From: a virus
IMG/VR virus record: IMGVR_UViG_3300032397_000074
Span: 1 to 24,861 of that record
Length of the DNA stretch: 24,861 nt
Direction: 5' to 3' (one strand)
Shown here: piece by piece, positions 3,268 to 22,133 of the stretch
Position numbering within the stretch: position 1 is the first letter of the stretch
Layout of the letters: each line of letters begins with the position of its first letter
The notes under the pieces: model-generated
Told to the model about the DNA's origin: nothing
Database searches by the model: none
What the model saw: the letters and a program-made list of their open reading frames with translations, nothing else
Made by a program: the position numbers and the translations under genes

Positions 3268-4302
3268 ATGGCCTCCCTTACCCTCGACACCGCCCGCCGG
3301 GTTCTGATCCTCTCCGTTCGTGGCAAGAAGGACCGTCTGCTCCGGGCTAAAGAAGGGGATCCTGCAGCCGTCTATACTCGGGCTCGCCAGATTTCGGAGC
3401 TCGACCCAGAGTCGGTCATCAAGTACCTGAACGTCCACTGTACTCCGGCCGAGATCGAGACTAAGTACGCACAGGCCAAGGTCGTGACCGGCAGCATGAT
3501 CGGCCGAAGGGCCCCGGCAAGCACCGAAGAGAGCACGAGGAGAGTGGTGGAGGACTCCGGAATACTTCCCCCATCGGTAAGGTCGGAGATGTGCAAAGCA
3601 GCACAAGGAGTATACGACGCGTGGGACCCGACGGGCCCTACCAGTGTCCGCGAGGCGATCGGCGACGCCATCGCCGCCGTACTGAATGACTCCGACATCC
3701 CGGCCGTCCGCTCCGGCCGCGACCGCCACTCCGAGGTCATGGCCCTCGTCGATGACGGCGTGTACGTGGTCGACATCCCCCGGGAGCTTTACGAGCGTTC
3801 GGGCGGTCGGGGCCGAGTGAAGGTCCCCGATGTCACTTTCGGCCCCGGGGATGTCACGGCTCAACGGATCGATGACGCCGCCGCGTGGCCCCGGTACTCC
3901 GGGGAGACGCCCGGCTTCGTCTTACAGAGGATGGCGGAGTCGGTGGCGGATCTCTTCCGGTCCGCTCGTCTCCCGGACGTCTTGCGCACCGGCTACGTCA
4001 TCCACTTCTCGGACCAAGGCCGGCGTACAGCCGTCATCGGTTACACGAACGGGGACGTCGCCGAGTCGGTGTACGGTACCTTCGACAAGACCGACCTGTA
4101 CGAGCAGTGGGACGACCCGGCCACCAAGGTCGAGATCGCCTCAGCCATACAGGACGCCCAGCCGACCCCGGCCACGTCCATCCTCGACTTCGAGACCTAT
4201 TTGCTGCAGTTCGATTCCGTGTACCTGTATCACAAGGAGACCGGAGAACTGCGGGAACTCACGGAAGACGAAGCACTCGCCGAACCCGGAGAAATGCAAT
4301 GA
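3268..4302 (+). CDS. Hypothetical phage protein, 344 residues
   Basis: I do not recognise this protein. It starts one base after the upstream stop, with no clear ribosome binding site, so translation may depend on coupling to the gene before. The sequence is mixed alpha/beta and soluble, without signal peptide or membrane helix. Residues 85-150 look helical; 150-185 contain short strands (DDGVYVVDIPRELYE). The C-terminal third ends in FETYLLQFDSVYLY followed by an acidic tail. Its TGA overlaps the next ATG as ATGA at 4299. A virion-related role is only suggested by position. Confidence 0.7.
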   Translation: MASLTLDTARRVLILSVRGKKDRLLRAKEGDPAAVYTRARQISELDPESVIKYLNVHCTPAEIETKYAQAKVVTGSMIGRRAPASTEESTRRVVEDSGILPPSVRSEMCKAAQGVYDAWDPTGPTSVREAIGDAIAAVLNDSDIPAVRSGRDRHSEVMALVDDGVYVVDIPRELYERSGGRGRVKVPDVTFGPGDVTAQRIDDAAAWPRYSGETPGFVLQRMAESVADLFRSARLPDVLRTGYVIHFSDQGRRTAVIGYTNGDVAESVYGTFDKTDLYEQWDDPATKVEIASAIQDAQPTPATSILDFETYLLQFDSVYLYHKETGELRELTEDEALAEPGEMQ

Positions 4303-18912: not shown

Positions 18913-19794
18913 CTACTCGAATCCAATCGCCAGTTCGCGGATGCGCTTCTTTGTGCTCTCGATACGGAAGGTCGCTTCCTCCCACGGCTCCTTGTCGATG
19001 ATGCCCTTGAGCTGCGCCCGGACGAGACGATCGAGGTAGGTCGGAGAGAGGGCGTCGAGTTCCCAAGAGGACTGGCCGAATTTGCGAATGTACCCGGCGT
19101 ACCGGGAGTCGGTGGTCTTGGCGGGATTTTCGGGCGGGTTGACCTCCCGCACCTGTTCCATGTTCAGCGCGATGCGCCTCATGTCGAAAGGCTGCCCATT
19201 GCAGAAAAGCTCCATGCGATCGTAGAGATCCCGGGTCATGTCGATCCCGGACGGATCGTGGTCGCCAAGGTGGAGAACGATCGGAGTCTGCTCCCCTTCC
19301 ATAGCCGGCAGCAGATCGGACAGGGCAAACTCCCGGAGGACGCTCCCGGACGGATAGCCGCGGGCCGCGAGAAGCGGGACGTCGAATTCCCGGCAAACGC
19401 GGTCCAGGACGCCGACGAGGGCTTCCTTCTCCACGATGACGAAGACGCGGTGTGGCTGGCCGACCCACATGTCCATGTGGAAGCCTTCGGCCGCTCCCCG
19501 CATGATCTCGGCACCCGAGCCCCACCGGGTCCGGCGCACGAATTCGCGGGTCCGATCCTCCAGCGCGTCCCAGTCGATCAGGCCGGCCAGCTTGGCATCG
19601 TTGATCGTCGAGGCAATGCGCTTGTAGTCTTGCACCGTGTTGGGCGAGTACCCCCGAGCAACCATCTGGTAGTACAGCTGGCGGGCGGTCAGCACGAAGC
19701 CTTGCTTCTGGTATTCCTGGACCACACCGTTCATGACTTCGATGAGGTCGAGGACAGCGGGCGTGAACTTGCGGCTGATGTAAGCCTGCTTCAT
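18913..19794 (-). CDS. Orphan TOPRIM protein resembling Spo11/topoisomerase VI A
   Basis: The 293-residue product starts at an ATG that overlaps the upstream stop. Residues 34-85 (LTARQLYYQMVARGY, then a helix leading to IDWDALEDRTR) resemble the winged-helix CAP region of topoisomerase VI A/Spo11, where a tyrosine pair after Arg carries the DNA-cleaving residue; here Y41-Y42. Residues 116-190 carry a TOPRIM pattern: Glu122 in VIVEKEAL, then LGDHDPSGID with Asp178 and Asp180 for Mg2+. No B subunit (GHKL ATPase) is encoded in the window. Such proteins recur in phages but are poorly characterised. DNA cleavage or nicking in replication, repair or defence is inferred from the fold. Confidence 0.75.
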   Translation of the reverse strand: MKQAYISRKFTPAVLDLIEVMNGVVQEYQKQGFVLTARQLYYQMVARGYSPNTVQDYKRIASTINDAKLAGLIDWDALEDRTREFVRRTRWGSGAEIMRGAAEGFHMDMWVGQPHRVFVIVEKEALVGVLDRVCREFDVPLLAARGYPSGSVLREFALSDLLPAMEGEQTPIVLHLGDHDPSGIDMTRDLYDRMELFCNGQPFDMRRIALNMEQVREVNPPENPAKTTDSRYAGYIRKFGQSSWELDALSPTYLDRLVRAQLKGIIDKEPWEEATFRIESTKKRIRELAIGFE

Positions 19795-20315
19795 GATTCG
19801 GCCTTTGAGATATCCTGCTGAGTCGGTGGCCCGATCCTGGGCCGTTCCGGTACTTCGGTCGGCGGGAGCAGGTTCATGCGCAGCTTCTTCGCTTCCCTCT
19901 CGACAGCCAACATCAGGCGCGACTGGTGCTCCACCACGGGGCGCTGCGACTCGTCGTGCGGGACCACGGTCAGCTTCTTGCGCTGGCGGTGGGCCTTCCG
20001 GCCGACGAAGCGGAGGATACCGTGGGTGGCGCTGCACACCTGGACGGCGTCGGCCGCGTAGAAGTGCCGGCCCGGGGACGACTCCACCACGCACCCCTTC
20101 TCCCGGAGCATCCGCGTCCGCCACGCGTAGGTGACGGTGTGGAAGCGGGCGCTCCGCCACTCCACTCGCAGGAGCTGCTCGATCTCCGCGTAGGGGAAGA
20201 TGTCCCCCACCTTCGGGTCCGGCCACGTCTTCAAGAGCAAGTCGACGTCCGGCTTGATCGGCAGCCCTTCCTCAGGCCGCAGGTGTTCTACCCGTGTAGC
20301 TTGTTCATCGGTCAT
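19791..20315 (-). CDS. Winged-helix-like phage protein, possible DNA-binding regulator or replication factor
   Basis: The 174-residue product starts at ATG 20315 after AGAGGA. Residues 37-90 look like a winged helix: a turn (GDIFPYAEIEQLL), a recognition-type helix with ARFHTVTYAWRTRMLREKG, then a beta hairpin (VVESSPGRHFYAAD). A basic helical segment (105-115) and a C-terminal Pro-rich tail follow. I recall similar small proteins in phage early regions with varied annotation, so regulator versus replication factor is open. It lies directly downstream of the pentamer array and upstream of the TOPRIM gene, so it is a candidate array binder. Confidence 0.6.
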   Translation of the reverse strand: MTDEQATRVEHLRPEEGLPIKPDVDLLLKTWPDPKVGDIFPYAEIEQLLRVEWRSARFHTVTYAWRTRMLREKGCVVESSPGRHFYAADAVQVCSATHGILRFVGRKAHRQRKKLTVVPHDESQRPVVEHQSRLMLAVEREAKKLRMNLLPPTEVPERPRIGPPTQQDISKAES

Positions 20316-20330
20316 GGATTCCTCTTCTAC

Positions 20331-20341
20331 GGTGATGGACC
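20331..20341 (-). promoter_or_regulatory. Partial third copy of the leader element
   Basis: GGTCCATCACC on the - strand matches 10 of 11 positions of GGACCATCACC in the two full leaders at 21265 and 24102. It sits between the array and the AGAGGA site of the downstream gene. Here it has neither the upstream TAGG context nor a clear TATWAT box, so it may be a processing or translation-related element rather than a promoter. Confidence 0.35.
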
Positions 20342-20355
20342 ATCTTCGTTACTTC

Positions 20356-20366
20356 GGTCATAGACC
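20356..20366 (-). other. Conserved array hairpin, copy 3
   Basis: On the - strand GGTC-TAT-GACC folds into a four-base-pair stem with a three-base loop. It is identical to copy 1 and closes the third pentamer run. It lies 14 bases before the partial leader element at 20331-20341. Confidence 0.6.
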
Positions 20367-20436
20367 CCTTGCCTCACCTCGCCTTGCCCCGCCGTGCCTA
20401 GCCTGGCCACGCCAGATGCAGTAAAATCAGATTCTT

Positions 20437-20447
20437 GGCCATAAGCC
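20437..20447 (-). other. Conserved array hairpin, copy 2, with compensatory changes
   Basis: On the - strand this reads GGCT-TAT-GGCC. Against the other two copies, the third pair changes from U-A to C-G and the fourth from C-G to U-G, so all four pairs are kept in RNA while the TAT loop is unchanged. Such covariation points to selection on a folded RNA or single strand. Confidence 0.6.
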
Positions 20448-20522
20448 CCATGCCCCGCCAGACCCAGCCCCGCCACGCCCAGCCTCGCCGCGCCTCTCAG
20501 TGTAAAACGCATTTGATAAATT

Positions 20523-20533
20523 GGTCATAGACC
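20523..20533 (-). other. Conserved array hairpin, copy 1
   Basis: On the - strand GGTC-TAT-GACC closes the first pentamer run. The preceding GGCCT/GGGG end of this run can also pair with CCCCAGGC just after the upstream stop codon, so this unit can form an alternative long-range stem across the whole run. Confidence 0.6.
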
Positions 20534-20582
20534 CCAGGCCGTGCCTTGCCGGACCCCGCCATGCCCCGCCTAGCCTGGGGCA

Positions 20583-21251
20583 TTACTGCAGAAGGATGGT
20601 GGCCTCGAACGTGCCGTACGGTCCCGGCTTCTTGGGGGCGCCGGGACGCCAGTCGCCGATACCCTTGTAGAGGCCGGCGTACTCGAAGATATCGCGCAGG
20701 GTGGCGTCTGTGATCTGGTCGTCCCACACCGCGATGGACCCGGTCGCCTGCCACCCGGCGGCGAATTGCGGGCGTACCCGGATGTGCTTGTTGGCTCCTA
20801 CGGCGGCGCGTTTCACCAGCAACTCGAACCCGAGCGCCTCCGCGTAGAGCTTGTGTTGGGCGAACGACGGCTCGTCTTTCAATGCCTCCAAGTCCGCCCA
20901 CCGGATGGTCTGCCCGTTGATCAGCAGCGGCCACGCGGGTTCGACGCTCATCATCCCGCTCTGCGTCTGCGACTTGAACGTCTTGCCGCTCTTGCCGCCG
21001 GGGACCGGGACCATGGCGCCGCCCTCCATCAGCGACTTCATGATATTGGTCTGGGGGACGACGAGCGCCCCGCCGTCGTGGTACGTACATCCGAGCCAAC
21101 GCCACGCCGGGGTACGGTCGTCGCCGGGTTTGCTCAGCTTCTTGTTGGCTGGGTCGTCCTTCCACGCTTCCATGAAGTCGGCCCATTCGATGTTGTCGTA
21201 GTGCATCAGCAGCGGGGTCTTGCCGGTGATCGTTACGTCGTATGTCCTCAT
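20583..21251 (-). CDS. RAMP/Cas7-like phage protein
   Basis: The 222-residue product starts at ATG 21251, six bases after AGGAG. It opens with YDVTITGKTPLLMH, the first-strand pattern (T/V..TG.TPLL.H) seen in Cas7/Cas5-type RAMP proteins. Gly-rich stretches follow (MEGGAMVPVPGGKSG), then a strand with VKRAAVGANKHIRVRP and a late GLYKGIGDWRP motif, echoing the Gly-rich loops of that fold. I recall this family as common in phages without an assigned role. No other Cas protein is in the window. The gene ends two bases before the pentamer array, so RNA or ssDNA binding to the array transcript is a testable inference. Family recognition is by eye; the RAMP relationship is remote. Confidence 0.65.
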   Translation of the reverse strand: MRTYDVTITGKTPLLMHYDNIEWADFMEAWKDDPANKKLSKPGDDRTPAWRWLGCTYHDGGALVVPQTNIMKSLMEGGAMVPVPGGKSGKTFKSQTQSGMMSVEPAWPLLINGQTIRWADLEALKDEPSFAQHKLYAEALGFELLVKRAAVGANKHIRVRPQFAAGWQATGSIAVWDDQITDATLRDIFEYAGLYKGIGDWRPGAPKKPGPYGTFEATILLQ

Positions 21252-21316: not shown

Positions 21317-21553
21317 CTAGAAGGGTAGGTCGTCTTCGGGCTCGCCTCGCAGCGGGTTACGCCCCGGGGCCTTCTCGGAATACGGGAACAGCGTGTAAAC
21401 GTGGGCAGCGTCCGACGTCAGGATAACGCAGGGGTTGAGCCGGACACTAATGCTACCGTTGTTGTTCTTCCAGGCGGCACCGACCTCTCCCTTCCGGTCG
21501 GTCTCCTTGTTGAGCACCTTCAGGACGTAATCGGGTTTGCGAGGGTCAGCCAC
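21317..21553 (-). CDS. Small protein with SSB-like acidic C-terminal tip, GTG start
   Basis: I place the start at GTG 21553, six bases after AAGGA, giving 78 residues (MADPRKPDYVLKV). It overlaps the end of the upstream gene by 34 bases. The core is beta-rich, with VGAAWKNNNGSISVRLNP, a pattern I recall from small phage proteins near recombination or ssDNA-binding genes. The last eight residues, EPEDDLPF, closely match the acidic DDDIPF-type tip by which bacterial SSB recruits partners. The protein is too short for a full OB-fold SSB, so it may mimic the tip or act as a minimal ssDNA-binding protein. Confidence 0.6.
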   Translation of the reverse strand: MADPRKPDYVLKVLNKETDRKGEVGAAWKNNNGSISVRLNPCVILTSDAAHVYTLFPYSEKAPGRNPLRGEPEDDLPF

Positions 21554-21777
21554 AGCGATTCCTTCTTCGGATCCTCGATCTGGACCATGGCGCGGCGGAT
21601 ATCCGCCATGACGTTTTGGACGGTACGGTGGTCGGACGGGGTGCGCCCGATCACCACCGTTCGGCCGACGGGAGATTTCAGCTTCACGTGCTTCTTCCCC
21701 GTCTCGTCCGTCCAACCGCTCCGCAGCAGGTCGCGGATGGCGCGGTTGAGGTCCTTGTTGTTCGTCGGTCCGTTCAT
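21520..21777 (-). CDS. HicA-like small basic protein
   Basis: The ATG at 21777 overlaps the preceding stop (ATGA) and has GGGAG seven bases upstream. The 85-residue product contains LLRSGW, then KKHVKLKSPVGRTVVIGRTPSDHRTVQN and a helix with IRRAM. The order of helix, G-turn, strand with KH, strand with TVVI, helix recalls the HicA double-stranded-RNA-binding-like fold, with H30 in the place of the HicA catalytic His. No HicB antitoxin is adjacent, so a toxin role is not supported; many phages carry such stand-alone versions. Confidence 0.55.
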   Translation of the reverse strand: MNGPTNNKDLNRAIRDLLRSGWTDETGKKHVKLKSPVGRTVVIGRTPSDHRTVQNVMADIRRAMVQIEDPKKESLWLTLANPITS

Positions 21778-22133
21778 TTTGCTCTCCCATCGGGGGCCCG
21801 GGGCCGGGCCCGTCCCCAACTAAGTACCGCCTCCTGCTCCTGTCGTCTTCGCAAGACGTCGGCCTCGGACTCGCCCTTAGCCGACTCCCGCGCCATGTCC
21901 CGACCGGCCCGCCAGTAGGCGTAGCAGACCATCTTCCGGGAGGCGGCGTCCCACCGGCCCGGGCTGACACCGTCGTAGCCATGCCAGAAGAACGTGGCGA
22001 AAGTGGAGCCGGGCGGGCGGCGGGCGCCCTCCTTGTCGAAGAAGGCACCCACCGCCGACGACCGAGTCCGGTACGCCCGGACGGCCGAGTCGTACTCCCG
22101 GCGCATGGTCTTGTCGCGGAACGGGTTGCTCAT
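21774..22133 (-). CDS. Hypothetical protein with a YAYWRAGRD motif
   Basis: ATG 22133 overlaps the upstream stop and follows a G-rich binding stretch. The 119-residue product has an N-terminal helix, then FFWHGYDG and a later CYAYWRAGRDMARE. Aromatic W/Y-AYWRAG motifs recur in small phage proteins resembling ribosome modulation factor-like folds, but this is weak. The C terminus is basic and helical (VLRRRQEQEAVL). Function unknown. Confidence 0.6.
   Translation of the reverse strand: MSNPFRDKTMRREYDSAVRAYRTRSSAVGAFFDKEGARRPPGSTFATFFWHGYDGVSPGRWDAASRKMVCYAYWRAGRDMARESAKGESEADVLRRRQEQEAVLSWGRARPRAPDGRAK

Follow-up and report, generated by a model that had tools for sequence, protein, structure and literature searches.

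A probable phage-borne VIPR locus with one Vipr protein, three vrRNA arrays and a candidate accessory gene

What is a gene for a small RAMP-like protein doing beside a tract of five-nucleotide repeats in a phage genome? The question is raised by a 24.9 kb phage fragment (the window, meaning here the whole stretch of DNA analyzed), in which a first-pass annotation had described a Cas7-like protein gene adjoining a pentamer array. The carrier is myovirus-like; its portal is of the T4 type (Pfam), and its capsid protein is 57% identical to that of Pseudomonas phage QdP_Psa3 and 55% identical to that of Xanthomonas phage phiXF1.

A recently described system, VIPR (Viral Interference Programmable Repeat), provides a natural point of comparison. 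It combines a small RAMP protein (Vipr) with a vap gene and with vrRNAs, encoded in the intergenic flanks of vipr, in which 9-16 YNNGG repeats are followed by a structured 3' tail (PMC13142463, a 2026 preprint). VIPR represents a newly described mode of RNA-guided DNA recognition that works with a gapped code, and it has been suggested to have come before CRISPR; its presumed use by phages is to switch off the genes of rival phages. Seven types have been published, and the systems of SUSP1 and P. fulva have been characterized; the experiments cover co-purification of the vrRNA, DNA binding through the NN dinucleotides at a one-base skip, repression of transcription, and interference with phages (PMC13142463). 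Given the homology, fold, array anatomy, tail structure, gene–array co-occurrence, and conserved partner gene observed here, we conclude that the window very probably holds a phage-borne VIPR locus, made up of a single Vipr, three vrRNAs downstream of it, and an accessory (vap) gene, and belonging to a clade other than that of SUSP1. Its features are as follows, the vrRNA coordinates being predicted extents drawn from the pentamer run and the tail.

20583..21251, minus strand: vipr, encoding a 222-aa RAMP/Cas7-fold protein (profile match to SUSP1 Vipr, phrog_4652, AlphaFold and PDB matches)
20524..20578, minus strand: predicted vrRNA 1, YNNGG array and hairpin tail GGGGTCTATGACC; run 20536-20575 (8 units); NN series CA TA GG AT GG CC AA AC CT
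20438..20496, minus strand: predicted vrRNA 2, GGYNN array and hairpin tail GGGGCTTATGGCC; run 20450-20494 (9 units); NN series (GA) GC GA TG GT GG TG CT GG AT
20356..20416, minus strand: predicted vrRNA 3, YNNGG array and hairpin tail GGGGTCTATGACC; run 20369-20413 (9 units); NN series CT GT CA TA AC GG AA GA GA AA
19791..20315, minus strand: candidate gene for a vipr accessory protein (vap), 174 aa, immediately following the vrRNAs (homologs by tblastn and profile-profile comparison)

The vipr reading frame opens with ATG, and its product begins MRTYDVTITGKTPLLMH; the motif TITGKTPLLMH, with which the protein had been said to open, occupies residues 7-17 of the 222. The sequence has no match in Pfam or NCBIfam and matches none of the Cas7 models of Pfam, NCBIfam, and PADLOC, and its match in PHROGs is to a family of unknown function (phrog_4652, E 7.5e-15). 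Among PDB sequences, the sole good match to the single sequence is 36pp_D, 'SUSP1 Vipr protein' (E 0.0019), and a profile of 43 relatives, built without SUSP1, aligns with the same chain over its full length at E 1e-28. Structure prediction gave a confident model (AlphaFold; pLDDT 92.9, pTM 0.87), for which the top PDB matches in Foldseek are effector chains of type VII and type III CRISPR systems (best E 6e-6). VIA-align likewise ranks chains of type VII Cas7 and type III-A Csm first, at Z 10.8 and about 4 Å over about 162 residues. The second-ranked BFVD match is a phage protein already called a 'Cas system-associated RAMP superfamily protein'. Vipr proteins are characterized as RAMP homologs, separate from Cas5, Cas6, and Cas7, that have an RRM core, a Gly-rich loop, and a thumb; full-length homology and overall fold place the window protein among them. 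The structural guess made from the raw sequence in the first-pass annotation, a Cas7-like RAMP fold, was right, and the nearest family is Vipr.

A tree of 52 sequences groups the window protein with those of three environmental phage loci (L011-L013; 79-81% identical), within a 39-member clade that sits on a long stem, apart from the SUSP1, LESphi2, and actinophage proteins; the stem has support of 93/92, and further long branches leave the exact joins unsure. Identity to characterized or named phage relatives is about 25-31%. Members of this clade share a longer protein with two conserved insertions, and compact vrRNAs that can end in a hairpin of 4 bp. Cellular relatives are rare: one genome scan recovered two, in a Steroidobacteraceae MAG and a Phycisphaeraceae MAG, and Vipr relatives occur in 3 of 296 genomes from the order of the former.

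The pentamer tract beside vipr, described in the first-pass annotation as a single array, is real, but it is not continuous: it resolves into three separate GGYNN runs of 8, 9, and 9 units, all on the minus strand, which is the strand of vipr. Counting lead units, each array has about 9-10 units. Neither strand of the 24.9 kb window has another run of at least 4 GGYNN units. The first GGC comes 7 bases past the vipr stop codon (4 bases when CCAGG is taken as the first unit), rather than the two bases first reported. That account also missed that the NN positions are a guide and that the tract comprises three guide-RNA genes with hairpin tails. It likewise did not mention double-stranded DNA as the proposed substrate, or the conserved partner encoded by the following gene. 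A 61-aa ORF (20327-20512, minus strand) overlaps two of the arrays. NN composition is near uniform, and comparison of NN with codon phase was uninformative. No consensus for a sigma-70-type promoter or an intrinsic terminator for the vrRNAs was seen in the locus, which, like the failure to establish a target for the guides, weighs against the VIPR reading. Rfam returned no match.

Every run in the window ends in GG and a short hairpin, as do the vrRNAs of VIPR (PMC13142463). Among relatives, 114 of 126 distinct tails can pair into a stem of 4 bp or more from a common start position, against a mean of 17.6 and a maximum of 26 in shuffles. At stem positions 2-4, all four Watson–Crick pair types occur among relatives, with compensatory changes; within the window itself, the stem of vrRNA 2 differs from those of vrRNA 1 and vrRNA 3 at two positions and retains pairing. 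The 3' tail is therefore structured in the manner of VIPR, as a GG-hairpin with a covarying stem. Folding the vrRNAs singly gave results no better than shuffles, and the minimum-energy fold of vrRNA 1 lacks the tail hairpin, so that the argument for this element comes from conservation and covariation across relatives.

The association between gene and arrays extends well beyond the window. A same-strand GGYNN run of at least 5 units lies within 1.5 kb of the gene in 78 of 80 IMG/VR loci with Vipr relatives, as against 1 of 80 in the opposite-strand control, and a run of at least 5 units appears in 1 of 1600 first-order Markov shuffles of the 80 regions; these loci are mutually related, and the counts do not represent 80 independent events. 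The strand bias, and the spread of the association to about 25% identity, are nevertheless difficult to account for in another way. One of the two exceptional loci (L069) begins 6 bases before the match; the other (L065) carries arrays of GGNNN, up to 11 units long, with A frequent at the third base. In a set of near-identical phages (L028-L040), one array slot keeps its tail and GGY while the NN series is exchanged, which is the behavior expected of guides.

Other arrays among the relatives show features of separate interest. One phage (L048:1826-2280) carries two vrRNAs with overlapping NN series (CC GT TT TG GT T.), as if addressing the same site in a shifted register. Uninterrupted GGYNN runs of 24-37 units occur in L012 (1437-1556), L025, and L062, exceeding the published 9-16 per vrRNA; the long run of L012 carries internal repeats.

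The gene that follows the vrRNAs is also shared. The protein encoded at 19791-20315 has tblastn homologs at 26 vipr-carrying loci among relatives, and profile-profile comparison with the vipr-adjacent genes of SUSP1, LESphi2, LittleE, and prophiBWHA-1 returns a probability of 97.3 and an E-value of 2.7e-11. Homology to the SUSP1 gene that follows vipr, and to its counterparts elsewhere, is what makes the product a candidate Vap. From locus order, we infer that the SUSP1 homolog is the gene designated vap1 in the preprint.

Compared with the VIPR of Escherichia phage SUSP1 (PMC13142463; PDB 36pp), the window locus shares full-length Vipr homology, same-strand GGY/NN vrRNAs, of which three lie downstream of vipr, a GG-hairpin tail, a homologous partner gene, and residence in a phage. 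Between the two proteins, identity is about 25%, and the window Vipr has 222 residues rather than about 195, with two clade-specific insertions. The SUSP1 tail has a predicted pseudoknot, whereas that of the window is a minimal 4-bp hairpin; vap follows the vrRNAs in the window but directly follows vipr in SUSP1; and Y of GGY is mostly C in the window and mostly T in SUSP1. In SUSP1, one further vrRNA lies upstream of the genes, in addition to the three in the downstream array (PMC13142463), while the window has none upstream. Pseudomonas phage LESphi2 and the actinophages LittleE, Trine, and prophiBWHA-1 likewise encode Vipr homologs at about 30% identity, with a partner gene after vipr. GGYNN arrays adjoin vipr in the first three, whereas prophiBWHA-1 shows only a 4-unit run; these proteins fall on separate tree branches, and their records say 'hypothetical protein'.

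If the mechanism established for SUSP1 and P. fulva transfers to this locus, Vipr subunits would line up on each vrRNA, one per pentanucleotide. The GGY triplets would remain unpaired with the target, presumably held by the protein, and the NN dinucleotides would jointly read double-stranded DNA with one base skipped between them (NNxNNxNN...). The bound complex would then keep a gene of a competitor, be it a phage, satellite, or prophage, from being transcribed, with help from Vap. The first-pass annotation had itself proposed a pentamer-phased protein–RNA or protein–ssDNA filament; the published VIPR complex is a protein–RNA complex built on a pentamer repeat (PMC13142463), and the window protein may be expected to bind RNA likewise. 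The loading of RNA, the one-base skip, binding to DNA, repression, and the choice of rival elements as targets are all carried over to the window by analogy with the published work (PMC13142463). Because identity to the characterized proteins is only about 25-31% and the clade sits on a long separate stem, the skip length and similar details may differ here. By this analogy, the locus is probably active and reads DNA with one base skipped; somewhat less surely, rival phages or satellites are its likely targets. Most of the natural targets proposed for VIPR are competitors of the carrier, namely satellites and prophages (PMC13142463).

Under the one-base-skip code, which is transferred from the preprint, the window guides would have the predicted targets CANTANGGNATNGGNCCNAANACNCT, GCNGANTGNGTNGGNTGNCTNGGNAT, and CTNGTNCANTANACNGGNAANGANGANAA. 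In about 2.9 million viral contigs (viral_contigs), these patterns yielded 0, 1, and 0 exact matches for vrRNA 1, 2, and 3, respectively. The sole match to vrRNA 2 (L091:8062-8087, minus strand) reaches 20/20 when the lead NN is added, with codon position 1, rather than the wobble base, being skipped; the frame that holds it presumably encodes a protein resembling a 2-oxoglutarate oxygenase, as we read it from the sequence. Assuming a collection of roughly 50 Gb, we estimate a chance expectation of about 0.1 such matches per guide, and the match is compatible with chance. Guides from three relatives (L031, L034, and L043) gave 0 one-base-skip matches, and vrRNA 3 gave 0 with at most 1 mismatch in the 296 genomes of the Steroidobacteraceae MAG's order. 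About 40 related phage records, searched with at most 3 mismatches, gave 0, 1, and 1 matches, none above chance, with 2 in one run of a reversed-pattern control. A search of guides against the collected loci at skips of 0-3 found no excess at any skip but the trivial self-match at 3. Within the window, no one-base-skip match to its own guides reached 0.83 identity.

These searches, which found no target for any guide, would also suit a role in which Vipr forms a structural or regulatory coat along pentamer RNA or single-stranded DNA, for example in control of its own operon, and the NN positions, with their nearly uniform composition, carry no target information. We consider such a filament improbable: the exchange of NN series within one kept slot of near-identical phages is as for guides, homologs recognize DNA by NN (PMC13142463), and missing targets are to be expected with the host and rivals unsampled. 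It is also conceivable, if unlikely, that this is a VIPR locus whose guides act on genes of the phage itself or of its host (lysis–lysogeny, for example) and not on rival elements. VIPR aimed at the repressor of a resident prophage can control that prophage (PMC13142463), and the failure to find a rival target would agree with such a role; the lack of a good guide match within the window, together with the preponderance of rival elements among natural targets (PMC13142463), argues against it.

The fold matches to Cas7 and Csm chains raise the further possibility of a remnant or derivative of class 1 CRISPR-Cas with a degenerate array. The resemblance to Cas7/Csm3 of type III and type VII systems is substantial (PDB 8z4j and 6xn3; RAMP fold, Z 10.8 and 10.7). 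Cas7 and Csm subunits in CRISPR complexes align along the guide RNA at a fixed register. That register is six-nucleotide, however, against a pentamer in VIPR, and the CRISPR guide is contiguous where that of VIPR is gapped. There is no sequence-family match to Cas7/Csm3, full-length homology is to Vipr, and the arrays are GGYNN runs with hairpin tails, not repeat-spacer units. In the 24.9 kb fragment, Cas1/2, Cas3, Cas10, Cas5, and Cas6 were not found (Pfam on 20 proteins, PADLOC on 10), in agreement with the earlier statement that Cas1, Cas2, and Cas3 are absent, and Tandem Repeats Finder reported no CRISPR repeat-spacer array. In the same screens, Cas11 was matched weakly (E 0.006) by one protein, for which a HicA-like family is a far better fit. 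We therefore reject a CRISPR remnant as very improbable indeed; the earlier view that this is not ordinary CRISPR is borne out, the anatomy being that of the published VIPR family (PMC13142463). The ORF at 20327-20512 (minus strand), which traverses two arrays, suggested that the pentamers might have no connection with vipr and be a chance or coding repeat. Same-strand co-occurrence in 78 of 80 loci refutes this, and the conserved, covarying hairpin tails likewise oppose it; its probability is negligible.

Read as a VIPR locus, the window extends the system, on statistics obtained independently, to a large environmental phage clade that is unnamed in the protein-family libraries used. It also supplies a compact version, with one 222-aa protein and guides of about 60 nt, and natural relatives with an altered fixed triplet. 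In the contig of the Phycisphaeraceae MAG (L093:9651-10900; RECQ01000021.1), six CGCNN arrays of 6-10 units flank a Vipr 44% identical to that of the window; the constant triplet is CGC rather than GGY, and the tails are CGG-hairpins whose stems differ yet pair. In L065 (3228-4251), GGNNN arrays, such as one of 11 units at 4197, lie beside a Vipr relative, the constant triplet looking looser than GGY. It is possible, although we hold the idea only tentatively, that the constant, protein-read triplet itself changed between relatives within this distinct deep Vipr clade (GGY as a rule, GGN in L065, CGC in L093). Were this so, the protein would co-evolve with the fixed portion of its code, and recognition of the scaffold could be mapped by comparing relatives. 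The preprint refers to a 'related consensus' shown in a supplementary figure (PMC13142463), and this may already cover the CGC triplet.

Two further genes near the locus may be recorded. Two genes upstream of vipr, a small protein (21520-21819, minus strand) matches a HicA-like model of PADLOC at E 2e-17 and belongs to phrog_2089. At 18913-19701 (minus strand) lies a phrog_6247 protein, named DNA topoisomerase, which shares 57-61% identity with proteins from phages of Pseudomonas, Salmonella, and Serratia.
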